Part shown: positions 34,391 to 45,050 of the stretch, in pieces
How positions within the stretch are numbered: position 1 is the stretch's first letter
How the letters are laid out: each line of letters opens with the position of its first letter
NCBI GenBank assembly: GCA_027946365.1
Contig: JAPEUQ010000007.1
Location: forward strand, 1,302,001-1,366,000
Length of the DNA: 64,000 bases
Direction: 5' to 3'
Source of the DNA: Kalmusia sp. IMI 367209
Lineage: Eukaryota > Ascomycota > Dothideomycetes > Pleosporales > Didymosphaeriaceae
Translations under genes and position numbers: made by a program
The notes under the pieces: model-generated
Databases searched by the model: none
What the model saw: only the letters and a program-made list of their open reading frames with translations
What the model was told of the DNA's origin: nothing

Positions 34391-36330
34391 ATGGCAGCAG
34401 TAGCTGTACCGCTCTCGCCCCAGGTCGTAGACACCATGGCTAACCGTCGCGTTCCTCTCGCAAACCTCCACAATGCCACAAATTCGCCCATGCGCGCAAC
34501 TGCCATCGGCGGCAAGCGTCAGCGCTCCCACGCCAGCGAGCAACGCGATCTTAGCTACGGGCAACCGCCCTCCAAGAAGCTTATTGTCGAAGCCGATGAT
34601 ACAGACGCACGTCGCTCTGGCCTTGTTCGCCGGAGTGGTGCTCCTCCGACAGCTCTTACAAAGAAGTTGGAAGCTGCACGCGAGCACAAGACCATACCTA
34701 GGTCAACCAGACCTGCACGGGCTCCTGAGGTAAATCAGAACATCGAGACCATTCGCAATTGGCAACGGCACTACCGCAAATTGTTTCCCCAATTTGTCTT
34801 CTGGTTCGAGAGTGTTCCCGACGACATCAAGTCTAGGATATCTAGACAGGCACAGATCCTAGGCTCCGTAAGTTTTGCTGGCTTGTTTCACGGCGTACAC
34901 TGCTAACAATATGGCAGCGTGAAGCCAAGTTCTTCTCCCGCGAAGTCACCCATGTCATTACCGCGCGCCCGGTCGGACCAGAATTCGATTCCAGCTCGTC
35001 GTCGACTGCTAAGGGCACCGTTAATCCAGCCCAGCTCGAATCGAAGAGGTCTGTGTTCGACGACGCGCTCCAGAAGACCCATGGAGACATACTACACAAG
35101 GCAAAGGAGCTGGGAATGAAGATATGGGCTATAGACAAGCTCCAGCGCATGATCGATGCCATGTTCAACACGGCTACTGGGGAGGACATTCCGCAATACA
35201 TTGCACGTAATGGGACTGCTACGTTGCAACCAACAGCGCGCCGTGATCTGCAGAAACTGCTGGAGCAGGAAAAGCTGAGTCGTCCCTCGGACCGTGACTA
35301 CTCTGTTGCATCACAGGACATGATCCCGCTTCGCGGCTTCTACATTTACATTCATGATATGGATGAAGTGACACGACCTGTCATGGTTCGAGAGTACTCC
35401 AAGGTAGTGAAGAAAGAAGACGGTAAATGGCCCCAATTCCGGGTCTCGGGCAACTACAAGTGTCCCTTCATTGAGGACAAGGAAGCAGTGCGAAGACAGC
35501 AACATGAGGAGCAGAACGCGCGTCAAGAACGTAGGATCGCGGCTGCCGCTCCGCGTACAAGGGCTGCCACCGCTTTGGAAGAAAAGCGTGCCCTGGGCGA
35601 CAACCCCAACCTCGCTCGCCGAAGTACCGCTCCTACCGTGCCTGTAAGAGAAGAGAATGCCAAGCCGCTCGGAGCACCGAAGGCTCTTCAAACAACACGC
35701 ACAAACCCGGATGGCATACCTCCCATGTTTGGCAGTGCTCAAGCTAGCCTGCGTGCTATGCCACGATTCATTGGGGGCGAACCCGTGGCTTCCGGCCTGC
35801 AACAATCGAACATCACGTCTGCCATCAAATCCCAGATGATCTCGTCTACTGCTGCCGCGCCAGGTGCACGTGCAGGCAATAGTAAAGAAGTCAATCAATT
35901 GAAGCGAAAAGTGCTAGAAAAGAATAGCGCACCTTCAGCGAACAGCTGCCATTCGTCTACCATGAACGATGCGTCTCTAAGGGCAGCTTTGAACCAAGAT
36001 TACTCTCAGCCTCCACGTGCTGCTAAACGCAAAGCCCAGGAAACCCTTGGGCACATTCGCGAGGACACAGACGAAGAGAGGAGACCTCAGAAAGCTGCAG
36101 CTATGCGTCGCAGGAGACCTGTTGAGAAGGAGCTCAAACCTGGCTACTGCGAGAACTGCAGGGAAAAGTTCAATGATTTTGATGAGGTGAGTGTTGTTGT
36201 TGCATGCTATTCGTCGCTTGAGCTAACACGACCTCAGCATGTTGTTTCACGCAAGCACCGCAAATTTGCAGTAACGCCGGACAATTGGACGGAGCTTGAC
36301 CAACTCATCGCCCAGCTCACGCGTGAATAA
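34391..36330 (+). CDS. DBF4: DBF4-like regulatory subunit of Cdc7 kinase (DDK)
   Basis: Three exons: 34391-34867, 34918-36186 and 36238-36330, with GT-AG introns of 50 and 51 nt. The product is 612 aa; the in-frame ATG at 34436 (MANRRVPLANLHN) is an alternative start. Family motifs appear in order: a BRCT-like motif N (NWQRHYRKLFPQFVFWFESV with FSREVTHVITARP), motif M (WPQFRVSGNYKCPFIEDKE), and the C-terminal DBF4 zinc finger formed across the last intron (GYCENCREKFNDFDE|HVVSRKHRKFA). Dbf4 activates Cdc7, which phosphorylates Mcm2-7 to fire replication origins. The middle is basic and disordered. The last intron is 51 nt and open in frame, so retention would insert 17 residues between the Cys and His ligands of the finger. 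Confidence 0.92.
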
Positions 36331-38066: not shown

Positions 38067-39197
38067 CTATGAAGGGACACTGGGCAGCTTGTCGAACACT
38101 TCTTTCCCGGCGCCTTTTCGCTCATGTCCTTCGGCGTTGTGCTCTTCTCGCTTTCCTTGAATTAACCTTTCGAACTCGGAGAATACCTCCTTGGACATCG
38201 GGTAGGTATGTTCAGGGGCCGGATATGCTCGGCTCTTGACCTCGGTCTTGTACTCTTGCATGGCTCTCATAGCTTCCGACCACACGTTGCCGTATTGCTT
38301 GACGAACTTGGGAAGGAAACGTCCAGGCGGGAAGTTGCCCATCATATCAGTCTGCACCAGTACTTGGCCGGAGCAGCCGTTCCCAGCTCCAATACCGATA
38401 GTGGGAACGCGAAGCTTCTTCGTTACTGATGCGGCAATCTCTGCCGGTACTGCTTCGACTACCATGGCATATGCTCCTGCTTCCTGGACAGCTATGGCAT
38501 CCTCGAGCAGGTTGAGTGCCGATGAAGTACTCTTTCCTTGAACCCGGAAACCACCGAGGGCGTTCTGTCGCTGAGGGGTGAGACCAACGTGGGCAAGAAC
38601 AGGGATGCCAGCCGAAGTGATCTTGGAGATTGTAGGGGCCATCTCCTTCCCACCTTCTAGTTTGACAGACTTGACGCGACCCTCCTTGACCATGCGGATT
38701 GCAGAGGCGAGGGCTTGCTCCGGGCTTACTTCGTAAGAGCCCATGGGTAAGTCACCAACCTATCAGACAAGTAAGCATCTGTGGCAGCAAGGTAGGAACC
38801 ATGAAGTATGAAGCCCTACCGTGAAGGCGCCCTTAGTCGCGCGTGCCACAGACCGACAGTGCAGCAGCATCTCCTCCATCAAGACTTCACTGGTATCCTC
38901 CATGCCAAGGGCGACCATAGCCAGACTATCCCCAACCAGGATCATATCCATGCCGGCATGATCAGCGACATGTGCACTCGGAAAGTCGTGGGCGGTGATC
39001 ATAGTAATCGGTTCGTTCTTCCGGTAAAGGCTCTGGAGGGTGTTGATGGTAACGGGCTTGCGGGCATTGGCCGGGGGTGTACCCAACGGAGAGTGTGAGC
39101 TCCACCGGACCTGGATGACAGGTGATATGGTACGCGCGGGCGACGGCGACGACAACGAGGAAGCGGACCGCCCCGCTATCCTCCATGATGTCTTCAT
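38067..39197 (-). CDS. 3-methyl-2-oxobutanoate hydroxymethyltransferase (ketopantoate hydroxymethyltransferase)
   Basis: Two exons: 39197-38820 and 38759-38067. The 60-nt intron (38819-38760) has GTAGGG and TGATAG ends and splits KGAFTVGDLPMGSYEV. The product is 356 aa. The first 40 residues are Arg/Ser-rich without acidic residues, a likely mitochondrial presequence. The enzyme body has the family motifs: MITAHDFPSAHVADHAGMD, ILVGDSLAMVALGM, GDLPMGSYE, VKLEGG, PVLAHVGLTPQ and PTIGIGAGNGCSGQVLV. It uses methylenetetrahydrofolate to convert 2-oxoisovalerate to ketopantoate in pantothenate and coenzyme A synthesis (bacterial PanB, yeast Ecm31). Divergent from UBC8. Confidence 0.95.
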
Positions 39198-40422: not shown

Positions 40423-41462
40423 ATGAGTAGTCCAAAGAGACGCATCGAGACGGATGTAGGTGATCCCAGAGACAAGGTGCTTCGGTCAAGATGTGGATGA
40501 ATGCTGACGCATGGCCTCTCGTTGCGTGTAGGTCATGAAGTGAGTAACGCCCGCTCTTGAATGTGTGTACTGGTGCTAATGTGTGAATAGGATGTATGTG
40601 AACAACAGCTTGCGCTACCTCGCTCTCTAGCAGTGACTAATACACAGCAGGCTTATGAGTGACTATGAGGTCACGTTGGTCAACGATAATAGTATGCCTT
40701 CCTCTTCCTCTTCTACCCATGTTCTAGCTGACAGTATCCTTAGTGTTCGTTCCGCCGCTAGCCGTCCCATCCTCGATGCGCCGTACAGCCACTGACATAT
40801 ACAAGGCAGGAGTTCTATGTGAGGTTCAAAGGCCCAGAAGAGAGTGCGTTATGTCGAACATTGCATGTGAAGTAGCTGACGCAGGCAGCACCTTTCGCTG
40901 GCGGTCTTTGGAAAATCCACGTCGAGCTACCCGACCAATATCCGTACAAGAGCCCTAGCATCGGCTTCGTAAACCGAATATTCCATCCCAACATCGACGA
41001 GTTGTGAGTCGTATCTCATTCCTTCCTCGTCCAGTGCATCAGCCATTGCGTTGTTGGCTCGCAAGAAGCTGCGGCTAATAATTCTGCAGGTCAGGATCAG
41101 TCTGCTTGGACGTCATCAACCAAACATGGTCACCCATGTACGATATGATCAACATCTTCGAAGTCTTCCTTCCTCAACTCCTCCGTTACCCAAATCCCAC
41201 CGATCCTCTGAACGGAGAAGCAGCCGCTTTGCTGATGAGGGAACCAAAGAGCTACGATGCCAAAGTGAAGGGTATGTCCAAGGTCGACTAGGCATTAGTG
41301 CTCAGGTCTAATTGTGTTGTAGAATATGTGCAAAAGTACGCATCCAAGGACACATCAGAAGACTCGGACAAGGACAACGATGACGATGACGAAATGAGCT
41401 CTGTTGGCAGTTACGAGTCCGGCGACGAAGACGAAGCGGCCGGCAACATGGAAGACATCTAG
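40423..41462 (+). CDS. UBC8: Ubiquitin-conjugating enzyme E2, UBC8/UBE2H type, with microexons
   Basis: The model giving the family protein has nine exons: 40423-40455, 40532-40539, 40591-40593, 40651-40691, 40744, 40806-40843, 40889-41003, 41090-41271 and 41323-41462; product 186 aa. All eight introns (45-86 nt) are GT-AG, most with CTRAY branch sites. Joined residues read IETDVMKMLMSDYEV and [19 protein letters not shown], matching yeast Ubc8 and human UBE2H in length and identity; unspliced reading is out of frame. The active-site Cys (about residue 85) lies in [14 protein letters not shown]. The tail is acidic (Asp/Glu/Ser), as in Ubc8/UBE2H. In yeast, Ubc8 works with the GID/CTLH ligase in glucose-induced degradation of gluconeogenic enzymes. 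A variant exon 5 of 40744-40748 with acceptor 40809 would give MF instead of MQ. Identity is firm; the exact microexon borders are inferred. Confidence 0.9.
40532..40539 (+). other. 8-nt exon 2 of UBC8
   Basis: GTCATGAA between an acceptor (GTGTAG) and a donor (GTGAGT). Encodes V, M and the first two bases of the next Lys codon. The preceding intron has a CTGAC branch site. Confidence 0.7.
40591..40593 (+). other. 3-nt exon 3 of UBC8
   Basis: GAT between an acceptor (GAATAG) and a donor (GTATGT). Both flanking introns (51 and 57 nt) have a CTAAT branch site. Inclusion yields VMKMLMSD, the same length as yeast VMKLLMSD; skipping yields a protein one residue shorter. Confidence 0.6.
40744..40744 (+). 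other. Inferred 1-nt exon 5 of UBC8
   Basis: A single T between an acceptor (CCTTAG) and a donor (GTTCGT). With the A ending exon 4 and the G starting exon 6 it forms the Met codon of NDNMQEF. No single intron over this interval preserves the frame at both ends. A 5-nt alternative exon (40744-40748) is also possible. Confidence 0.55.
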
Positions 41463-42305
41463 GCGACTTTTCTTCGCCCGGCGATTACATAGCCTCTCTT
41501 CTTTATGCGTTTCCTTTTGGTCACAGACTCACTGGGTGGACATTCAAGGCGCATCTTGGCGCTCATTTCACTCACCGGCTGCATCACATATTCCCCAGGT
41601 CATCGGTTTACACATTTGTCAATTTGGATCCTATTCATGACTATCTCTTTCTTGAAATTATACTTTAGGTGACTGTTTAGGGTGGAGGTATCCCCTGGCA
41701 GGTGGGAGTGGATCAGTAGTGCCCGTGCGTGATGGACTCGCGATGGGGTAGCTAAGATGGAGAGGTTGTTCCTGCGCTGTTCATGTAGAAGCGAAGATTG
41801 CATTTCTACTCTATATTGCCTTCTACCATTTTCATGTATGCTCTATTCCATCACGACAGACGCTGGAGTAGCCTAGCCAGTAGCATTCTGCTGCGCTCTA
41901 CGGGCAATTGACTTGTCTACAGTCGTGTCGCAAGTTCATTGTTAGAAACACCTTATGGGTAGAGAATCATTAGCTTGGGCTCCATGCCCGCATGTATGTT
42001 GTTTCTCTATGAGAGTTCAAAGCTCTCACTTCGGCCGTCAAATGCATACAAGGACCTGAGGTTTTGTACAAGGAATGTCATAGGGCTCAATGCTGCCTTT
42101 GACTTCGATCAAGCTCTGAGGAAAGTCGATCAAAGGAAAATAGGTATCTAACATGTTTGATATAATGGTCTACCTCTCACGCCCCGTGTTCCAGATGTCG
42201 TGCGGGGCGTGGGGGCGGACCCACATGACATTGCGGCTGAGCGCTAATTTTGGAGCTGATAGTGCCTTCCCATCCTCAATCTCCTGGGACGAGACTATTA
42301 CCGCG
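41463..42305. other. Intergenic region between UBC8 and the STAND-type gene
   Basis: About 840 bp between two plus-strand genes with no coding-like frame. The frame of the downstream gene is open above its chosen ATG, but the composition there is leader-like. Confidence 0.5.
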
Positions 42306-45050
42306 ATGGCGGATCCTCTGTCCATCACCGCCAGCGTAGTCACCCTCATTCAGGTCTCCATCCAGGTCAGCCTTCTCCTGAGGCAATTTCGCGACGACGT
42401 CAACCTTGCCGACGTTACGCTCACCGGCCTCTACAATGATGTAGAAGGCTTCCAGCGAGTGTTGGAGTCTACGAAGGAAACCTTTGACCAGCACGACATC
42501 AGATCTACGCTCCAAATTACCGGCCATGTTGGAAACCACTGGAAAAATCTTGCCAGATCACTGAAAGATGGGGCAGAAACGCTGCAACACCTGCGCGAGT
42601 TGTTGGACGGCGTAAACAAGAATCGTAGCTTCTTGGAGAGTTCAAGGAAGGCATTGAGGTTACGAGGGGTCAAAGAGCAGATTAAAGGGTATCGAGAGCA
42701 GATTCAGAGCTATCGAGGAGCCCTTCAACTATCATTAAGCACAGTGATACTATGGAACCAGGTCACATTTCAGAAAACCACCGATAGGATACCGGAACGG
42801 ATACTTCCCAATCTAGACAAGCTTTATGATGAATTTCGAAGCTTTGGCACTGTCCTCAACGACAAGATCGAGCAATTGCAAATCGAAGTATCTAGGGACA
42901 GCCAACAACAGTTAGAGCCAGTGCGGCAGATGGACACCAAAAAACAACTAAAGTCCATGCAAAACTTGAGGGACTGTGTTCGTTCCGCTGCTGACGTTGC
43001 CTCTACAGCTTCTACCACTATCAGCGCTGAAGCTAGCGACAATGTTTCTGTCAAGCACGGCTCCGATTTTGGTGACATATTTACAAGTGGACAGGACGAA
43101 ACAGTCTTGCAATGGGTGCAGTCAAATACCATACTGGAAGTTGAGAGTAGTCCCTTAGCAACATCAAATGGACTTGACCTACGCGAGGCTCCTGTATTGG
43201 ATCAGCCAGACAGTGAGTCGGACATTGAAAGTGACGTGAGTTTCACTAGGACTCATCTCATAAAGATAAACTAAGTACTCATCATAATCTTAGGTTGCTC
43301 AAGCTCTCTTAACAGACGGCAAGAAGCGCAAAGAAGGAGGCGATTTGGCAGGAGCAGCACGTCACTTCAGAAATTGCCTATCCAGGCTGCCATCAAATAC
43401 GTCGATTTCCACATCCTCAAGACGTGTTGAGTCAGGCAAGGTATCCAGAGACGAAGTTTTTGAGTTGCTTATTGAAACATACCGCCAACAGGGAGCGTGG
43501 GCGAATGCAAAGGCTGTCGTGCTTGAAAAATTGAAGGCCACTGAACGGCAACTTGGAACGAAAGATAAACGTTATCTACTGGACAATCTCCAGTATGCCG
43601 AGATCTTAATGTACAACAAAGAGAATGTCGAGGCGCACCTACAAGCTCGTAGGTCTTTACGTGGATTCAAGAAGCTTGGAGAACTGGGCCATACCGAGTA
43701 CGAACGATGCTTACAACTACTAATTCACCTAAGCAAAGCAGAAGGGAAGTCAGACGATGAGGAGGGTTATATTGCATTGTTAATCAGTCATCGTGCGCGG
43801 TTGAATGAATCTCTTGCGATGCCCGAAAAAGGCGAAAGTGAGCAACTAATTGCCAACGCGGCCCCCGTCCTGTCATTACGAAAAAAGTCTTCAGCCTTCA
43901 CTCCGTTGTCTTCGCAAATCTCTTCGAACGGAGCTGGAAAACTACAAGAGGGGAGTGCTTCGCCTGGTAAGGAACTTGCACAGCCTGAGGTACATCCGGA
44001 CCCTCAAGGAGCCCGATCTCCCACAGCACACCAAGTACCTACTTTGGTTAATCGAAACGAAGTGTCAGATGCAGTCAAGCGTCAGCCGTACTCTGAAAAA
44101 TATGATGTTGATGAGTATGGCCGTAAGATTCCTTCCGAAGTCAAGATGCAAAGAGTTCGTTCAGTCTCTCCTTCTCCTTACTCGAGGTCGGACCCGCGTA
44201 CGCGCCTCAAGGAAAGACTCGGACTTCAGGAAAAGCCATCATCTACAGCGGAAGAGAGCTCAGAAATTCTGTAGGTTAATTCCCTCATCTGCTTTTTGAA
44301 GGTATTCCCGAGGTGGCCAGCATGATAGTGACATCACAATGGTGTGCAGCTCAGTCGAACTCTCTACTGATACATGAGGAATGCAGGGAGCCATCATTAG
44401 AACCTTTTCTTACCAGCAGGGACAACTACGAAAAAATGTTCCCTTCACTGAAACTTTACGGCCCAAATCCCGACCCTGAAACCACACTCACGAAACCAAT
44501 ATTTCAAGTGAAGGCAACAGTGGATTACACTACGTATATCGAAGGTTATCTGGACTTTAAAATTGGCCAAATCATTTCTGTCGTCAATAACAAAGATCCT
44601 GAATGGTATGGAGGCTACACCGTCGACAAGAACGTGAAACATTTCGGGATGTTTCCAAGTTCTTTGGTCACGAGATATGAGCCAACGCAATTGTTCCCAC
44701 GACCTCCTAAGCCGGAAAGTATCGCACGCAAGTCTGAGAGTGCTTCGGTACCGCCTGTACGTGTGGTACAGTACGGTCACTCTGACCAGCACCGGACCAA
44801 TTCCAGAGGACCAGGTTCCTCAGGTTCATTGATACCAACTGATATAACGGCAGCCATACCCGCCAGTTACTACACAGGGCCAGTTTCCAAAGATACCTCA
44901 GCGAGTGCGTCGAATAGTTCATCGGCAACAAGAATACCTAAAGACAACTTGGTGCCATATATTCCTCCCTCACCTAAATGGAAGAGTGAGCGGAGTTGGT
45001 CAAATTTTCTGTATAACAGTTTCAAAAAGCAGGATCCAGAGAAGCGTTAG
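42306..45050 (+). CDS. Protein with fungal STAND N-terminal domain, TPR-like middle and C-terminal SH3 domain
   Basis: Exon 1 is 42306-43235 and exon 2 starts at 43294; the 58-nt intron is GT-AG. Exon 2 reaches TAG at 44272. A 50-nt GT-AG intron (44271-44320) would instead link it in frame to an SH3 block ending at 45050, giving 878 aa; a further 45-nt intron (44342-44386, with a branch-like CTGAT) may give 863 aa. Residues 1-210 resemble the helical N-terminal domain of fungal STAND/NLR proteins (MADPLSITASVVTLIQVS, FRSFGTVLNDKIEQLQ). After the intron comes a TPR-like stretch (GDLAGAARHFRNCL, LLIETYRQQGAWANAKAVV), then a disordered linker. The SH3 has ATVDYTTY, PEWYGGY and GMFPSSLV. No NACHT/NB-ARC ATPase is present. 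Two adjacent genes remain possible, but only about 50 bp would separate them. Confidence 0.6.
44485..44684 (+). other. SH3 domain coding block
   Basis: Encodes an SH3 fold with an ALYDY-like start (ATVDYTTY), the acidic RT-loop region, the WYGG motif and the GMFPSSLV end. The frame differs from the upstream STAND-domain exon, so a splice or a separate start is required. Confidence 0.75.

Follow-up and report, generated by a model that had tools for sequence, protein, structure and literature searches.

The UBC8 gene of Kalmusia sp. IMI 367209 very probably contains a constitutive exon of a single nucleotide, the T at position 40744, flanked by two introns that would be removed successively, in an arrangement that is probably widespread in Pezizomycotina. 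Positions refer to the window, the 64,000-nt stretch of contig JAPEUQ010000007.1 that we analyzed. The case for splicing through T 40744 in this strain is built on its DNA and on the proteins of its relatives.

The gene occupies positions 40423–41462 of the forward strand, and its nine exons (33, 8, 3, 41, 1, 38, 115, 182 and 140 nt) join into an uninterrupted reading frame of 186 amino acids. We placed exon 1 (40423–40455; 11 residues) from the spliced translation and the parse of the N terminus. Intron 1 (40456–40531; 76 nt, GTAGGT...GTGTAG) separates it from the 8-nt microexon GTCATGAA (exon 2, 40532–40539), which intron 2 (40540–40590; 51 nt, with donor GTGAGT, CTAAT and a GAATAG end) in turn separates from the 3-nt microexon GAT (exon 3, 40591–40593). 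Intron 3 (40594–40650; 57 nt, GTATGT, CTAAT, CAGCAG) leads to exon 4 (40651–40691), whose last base is the A of a split Met codon. The predicted exon 5 (40744–40744), a lone T that supplies the middle base of this codon, lies between intron 4 (40692–40743; 52 nt, GTATGC, CTGAC, CCTTAG) and intron 5 (40745–40805; 61 nt, GTTCGT, CTGAC, TACAAG), and exon 6 (40806–40843) begins with the G. The remainder consists of intron 6 (40844–40888; 45 nt), exon 7 (40889–41003), intron 7 (41004–41089; 86 nt), exon 8 (41090–41271), intron 8 (41272–41322; 51 nt) and exon 9 (41323–41462), which includes the stop codon. The first-pass annotation had located the end of exon 4, both flanking introns, the T and the start of exon 6 at the same positions.

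We assign the product to the UBC8/UBE2H-type E2 enzymes from its UBC fold domain (Pfam PF00179), its full-length match to yeast Ubc8 and the active-site motif GSVCLDV in the spliced translation. With a query carrying one extra Ser, the match to yeast Ubc8 (PDB 8pmq_E) covers residues 1–178 with an E-value of 7.5e-69, and human UBE2H is matched as well. At the site of the split codon, yeast Ubc8 reads NDSMQEF and the gene described here NDNMQEF. Upstream of the gene, Pfam matches identify a Dbf4/Dfp1-like kinase regulator (35053–36330, forward strand) and a ketopantoate hydroxymethyltransferase (38067–38744, reverse strand); downstream lie a frame with a PigL_N match (42153–43274, forward strand; E-value 2.2e-09) and an SH3-containing frame (44313–45050).

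At positions 40742–40746, a single base is flanked by AG and GT (AG|T|GT), with a complete set of intron signals on either side. The CTGAC motif ends 11 nt before the end of intron 4 and 9 nt before the end of intron 5. The other six introns of the gene measure 45–86 nt and carry a CTNAY motif 8–23 nt from their ends; introns 4 and 5 resemble them in donor, CTGAC and AG. The donor of intron 5, GTTCGT, differs from the common form, and this counts against the single-nucleotide exon. To gauge how readily such a configuration arises by chance, we generated 5000 dinucleotide-preserving shuffles of 40694–40803 and counted AG|T|GT only where it was flanked by 40 nt or more in both directions. The AG|T|GT string fell within this range in 196 of the 5000 shuffles, in 30 together with a GTNNG donor, and in just 1 when both branch motifs were required as well.

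Enumeration of the possible splicing patterns leaves a single solution. No deletion of one segment at the locus, whatever its ends, produces NDNMQEF. The earlier claim that no acceptor rescues the donor at 40692 holds: within 40651–40843, none of the single introns of 35 nt or longer that keep the frame open uses this donor, and all of them add or lose residues. When two GT/GC-AG introns, each 35 nt or longer, are allowed, NDNMQEF results only if exon 5 is T 40744, although three near solutions exist, one of which reads MFEF. Allowing nested removal returns only the same two introns, in either order and with the same mRNA. The failure of every single deletion and the uniqueness of the two-intron parse support T 40744 as an exon, and the single-nucleotide reading proposed in the first-pass annotation is the only parse we found that gives the conserved protein. 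The frame of that protein requires the base: skipping T 40744 brings a stop at codon 34, and skipping it or retaining one or both introns leads to stops at codon 34, 63, 82 or 85.

Several other accounts of the region were tried and rejected. The introns do not form a stwintron, as the enumeration gives only a side-by-side pair and no nested GT-AG parse yields the protein. Positions 40680–40815 match only themselves in their own assembly, in a search that skips very common words, which speaks against an introner-like repeat. We likewise set aside the idea that introns 4 and 5 arose in tandem, as 238 of 1000 shuffles reached the score of their local alignment. The region 40670–40830 is unusually unstructured, with 199 of 200 shuffles folding at least as well; no special fold is thus suggested around the single-nucleotide exon, and we discarded the idea of a structural device.

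We then compared the gene with its relatives. Three homologue searches, from each of which the best 120 of more than 5000 matches were kept, listed 266 distinct proteins. Close relatives among those listed, up to 95% identical, come from Pleosporales and from short contigs. None of the model counts includes P0001 or P0029, two plant-labelled proteins; P0001, a 302-residue E2 labelled Quercus suber, has the best E-value in all three lists at only 59–62% identity, and is probably a repeated domain. Forty-seven of the listed proteins are transcript-like, coming from environmental or read-archive sources and nearly all from contigs shorter than 4 kb (the exceptions are one on a 7.3-kb contig and one without a stated length). 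We take these 47 to be cDNA-derived, since on such short contigs they contain the complete reading frame, uninterrupted at five intron positions. In all 47, none of which comes from this organism and whose RNA origin we infer, Met occupies the site of the split codon. Their motifs are NDNMQEF (40), NDNMSEF (3), NDSMQEF (2), NNNMSEF (1, P0045) and HDNMQEF (1), the residue after Met thus being Gln in 43 and Ser in 4. A search of a genome contig collection for DNA of relatives returned three prokaryote records only, and a search of viral contigs gave four stretches, none of them a relative.

The listed proteins also include 211 genome-derived models that we assigned to Pezizomycotina by name. Only 17 of these are intact at the site; in 158 the sequence holds through NDN and fails at the codon after it, and the remaining 36 have lost the end of exon 4 too. 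Two of the three queries, P0113 and P0118, come from broken models and may favour broken relatives; with the intact query alone, whose counts are free of that effect, 11 of 70 listed models are intact (P0030 and P0090, which read NDNSMQEF, are not). All six listed models from Lipomycetaceae, Dipodascopsis and Saitoella, which we take to be outgroups to Pezizomycotina, are intact. The 17 intact Pezizomycotina models weigh on the other side: some lineages may have lost an intron, or been annotated with RNA.

The errors in the broken models carry an imprint of the same exon. In 26 listed models NDN-M is followed by an insertion, and in 25 of these the sequence continues as ATG TNN GNN (MYV 11, MFV 4, MYA 4, MSV 2, MYG 2, MLV 1 and MYD 1; the exception is MHP), the residues encoded when translation runs from the T into a GTNNGN donor left unspliced; the background of dipeptides of this type in inserted residues is 165 of 2180. 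The 25 fitting models include Aspergillus, Penicillium, Fusarium, Beauveria, Aureobasidium, Hortaea and Diplocarpon, genera that we take to span four classes. In a further 27 listed models the motif is NDNS-x-[QS]EF, where x is in every case a residue with an NNG codon, the product of a shift to a GT at +5 of donor 4 that is then joined to G|CAG. Seven read NDNR[QS]EF, which the DNA of the present gene would likewise give if the intron ended one base early. The 23 listed models reading NDNK-F would be the product of a CAAG within exon 6 used as acceptor, and 27 have other insertions. Among models with a long S...R insertion, 8 of 11 fit a template for complete read-through of both introns (A|GT...CTNAC...AG|T|GTNNG...CTNAC...AG|G) against 0.25 expected from shuffled insertions, although related models share history and are not independent, and such small probabilities overstate the case. 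These eight, from Parastagonospora nodorum, A. niger and several Fusarium, some of them the same species, imply introns of 47–56 and 52–67 nt; two of the three that do not fit are too short to do so.

Whether the same intron pair occurs elsewhere had been posed as a check, and the erroneous models answer it in the affirmative: they imply that four classes or more, as we assign them, share the T exon. The feature is therefore not special to this copy. The single-nucleotide UBC8 exon is probably conserved widely in Pezizomycotina and mostly mis-annotated, and automatic gene prediction usually misses it. To judge by the decoded errors, the arrangement may predate the radiation of Pezizomycotina.

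Four other readings of the site have to be weighed against the single-nucleotide exon. The first-pass annotation had named as its main alternative a 5-nt exon TGTTC (40744–40748), with exon 6 starting at 40810, which would give NDNMFEF, a protein of the same length. As an arrangement of GT-AG splice sites the suggestion is valid, its two introns measuring 52 and 61 nt. Its protein speaks against it, for Phe occurs at that place in none of the 47 listed transcript-like relatives, where only Gln and Ser are found, and MFEF is likewise missing from all 211 listed genome models. The donor would also be GTTCCG instead of GTTCGT, and we regard this exon as very unlikely. Equally unlikely is a single GC-donor intron (40696–40805), the nearest of the in-frame single introns, which would give NDNSMQEF with one extra Ser. 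Four listed public models do read NDNSMQEF, but such a result is to be expected from prediction programs that shift five bases into a GTATGT donor and use the GT at +5; none of the 47 listed transcript-like relatives has the extra residue, and the donor GCCTTC is far from what we take to be the usual GC-donor consensus.

Ending a single intron on a non-AG acceptor (40692–40804, ending in AA) would also produce an uninterrupted protein of the right length, NDNRQEF. The seven listed NDNR[QS]EF models agree with this, yet a better account of them is that the prediction programs forced the frame. Such an intron would have a non-canonical 3′ end, Arg is found in none of the 47 listed transcript-like relatives, and its probability is in our judgment minimal. 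We consider it just as improbable that the apparent need for a second intron was created by a one-base assembly gap or a damaged copy. One base missing before 40806 would indeed permit a single 114-nt intron, but the gene is otherwise intact across 186 amino acids, the same codon is the breaking point in 158 of the 211 listed models, which come from many independent genomes, and two full sets of intron signals appear in a single 114-nt region in only 1 of 5000 shuffles.

The single-nucleotide exon is not the only tiny exon in the gene. The GTCATGAA and GAT exons form the only solution with two or three GT-AG introns that we found for the N terminus, and GAT has left traces in the models of relatives. 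All 47 listed transcript-like proteins have the full N-terminal motif, as do 47 of the 211 listed genome models; in 60 the one residue that the 3-nt exon contributes is all that is missing. Another 14 of the 211 read K-M-Y-[VADEG] and 15 read ETD-DV, both of which would arise from reading GAT on into a donor that was not spliced; 11 of the 211 read through donor 2, and in 64 the N terminus is otherwise wrong.

For the single-nucleotide exon, we propose that two ordinary short introns, one base apart, would be excised one after the other by intron definition, with A (40691), T (40744) and G (40806) brought together as the Met codon within NDNMQEF. Splicing factors require room at a splice site, and the room required at the acceptor of intron 4 overlaps with that at the donor of intron 5. 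This overlap makes sequential removal, as proposed for the plant gene APC11, the most likely route. A more speculative idea, which we think doubtful, is that the 1-, 3- and 8-nt exons constitute a very old cluster that predates the radiation of Pezizomycotina and is kept as a checkpoint on UBC8 output; it draws on the fact that every splicing failure we examined gives an early stop.

We found two nuclear single-nucleotide exons in print, each in one gene of a narrow group, and UBC8 would be the third; a literature search in which subscription journals were thinly covered returned no report of a microexon in UBC8 or another E2 gene in fungi. The UBC8 exon is another case of a known exon class, unusual for its spread. 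If it does extend over several fungal classes, single-nucleotide exons can persist through very long periods of evolution, and UBC8 genes would offer a natural series in which to study what the spliceosome does when 3′ and 5′ splice sites overlap. In practical terms, 194 of the 211 listed UBC8 models from filamentous ascomycetes are probably wrong in their first third.

The first-pass annotation had correctly named a precedent in plant APC11: the Arabidopsis report describes a single-nucleotide exon demonstrated with cDNA and GFP constructs, for which the authors favour successive removal of two introns (PMC4674806). Both APC11 and UBC8 belong to the ubiquitin system, and in both one base that is essential for the frame lies between AG and GT. 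The plant exon is an A within a 422-nt intronic stretch, whereas that of UBC8 is a T within 114 nt, and the rice homologues of APC11 are described as having no introns, whereas the UBC8 imprint spans many fungal genera (PMC4674806). Among APC11, CYP621A and UBC8, APC11 is the only experimentally tested case.

The closer parallel is the Fusarium gene CYP621A, whose single-nucleotide exon was found by comparison of a conserved motif and is, according to its authors, the first in a fungal gene (PMC12940212). Like UBC8, CYP621A is a fungal nuclear gene in which the exon supplies the middle base of a codon between two short introns, and its public models are wrong; its intronic stretch is 139 nt in F. 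graminearum (PMC12940212). There the base is a G in AGGGT, reported from one genus and backed by RNA reads (PMC12940212), whereas the T of UBC8 is predicted from DNA and protein models; it belongs to the gene of a core E2 enzyme and has left traces in four classes or more. The stwintrons of filamentous ascomycetes are similarly described as two neighbouring introns that are removed in consecutive reactions. In a stwintron, however, a splice signal of one intron is interrupted by the other, with no exon base between them, whereas the two UBC8 introns lie side by side with a T in between.
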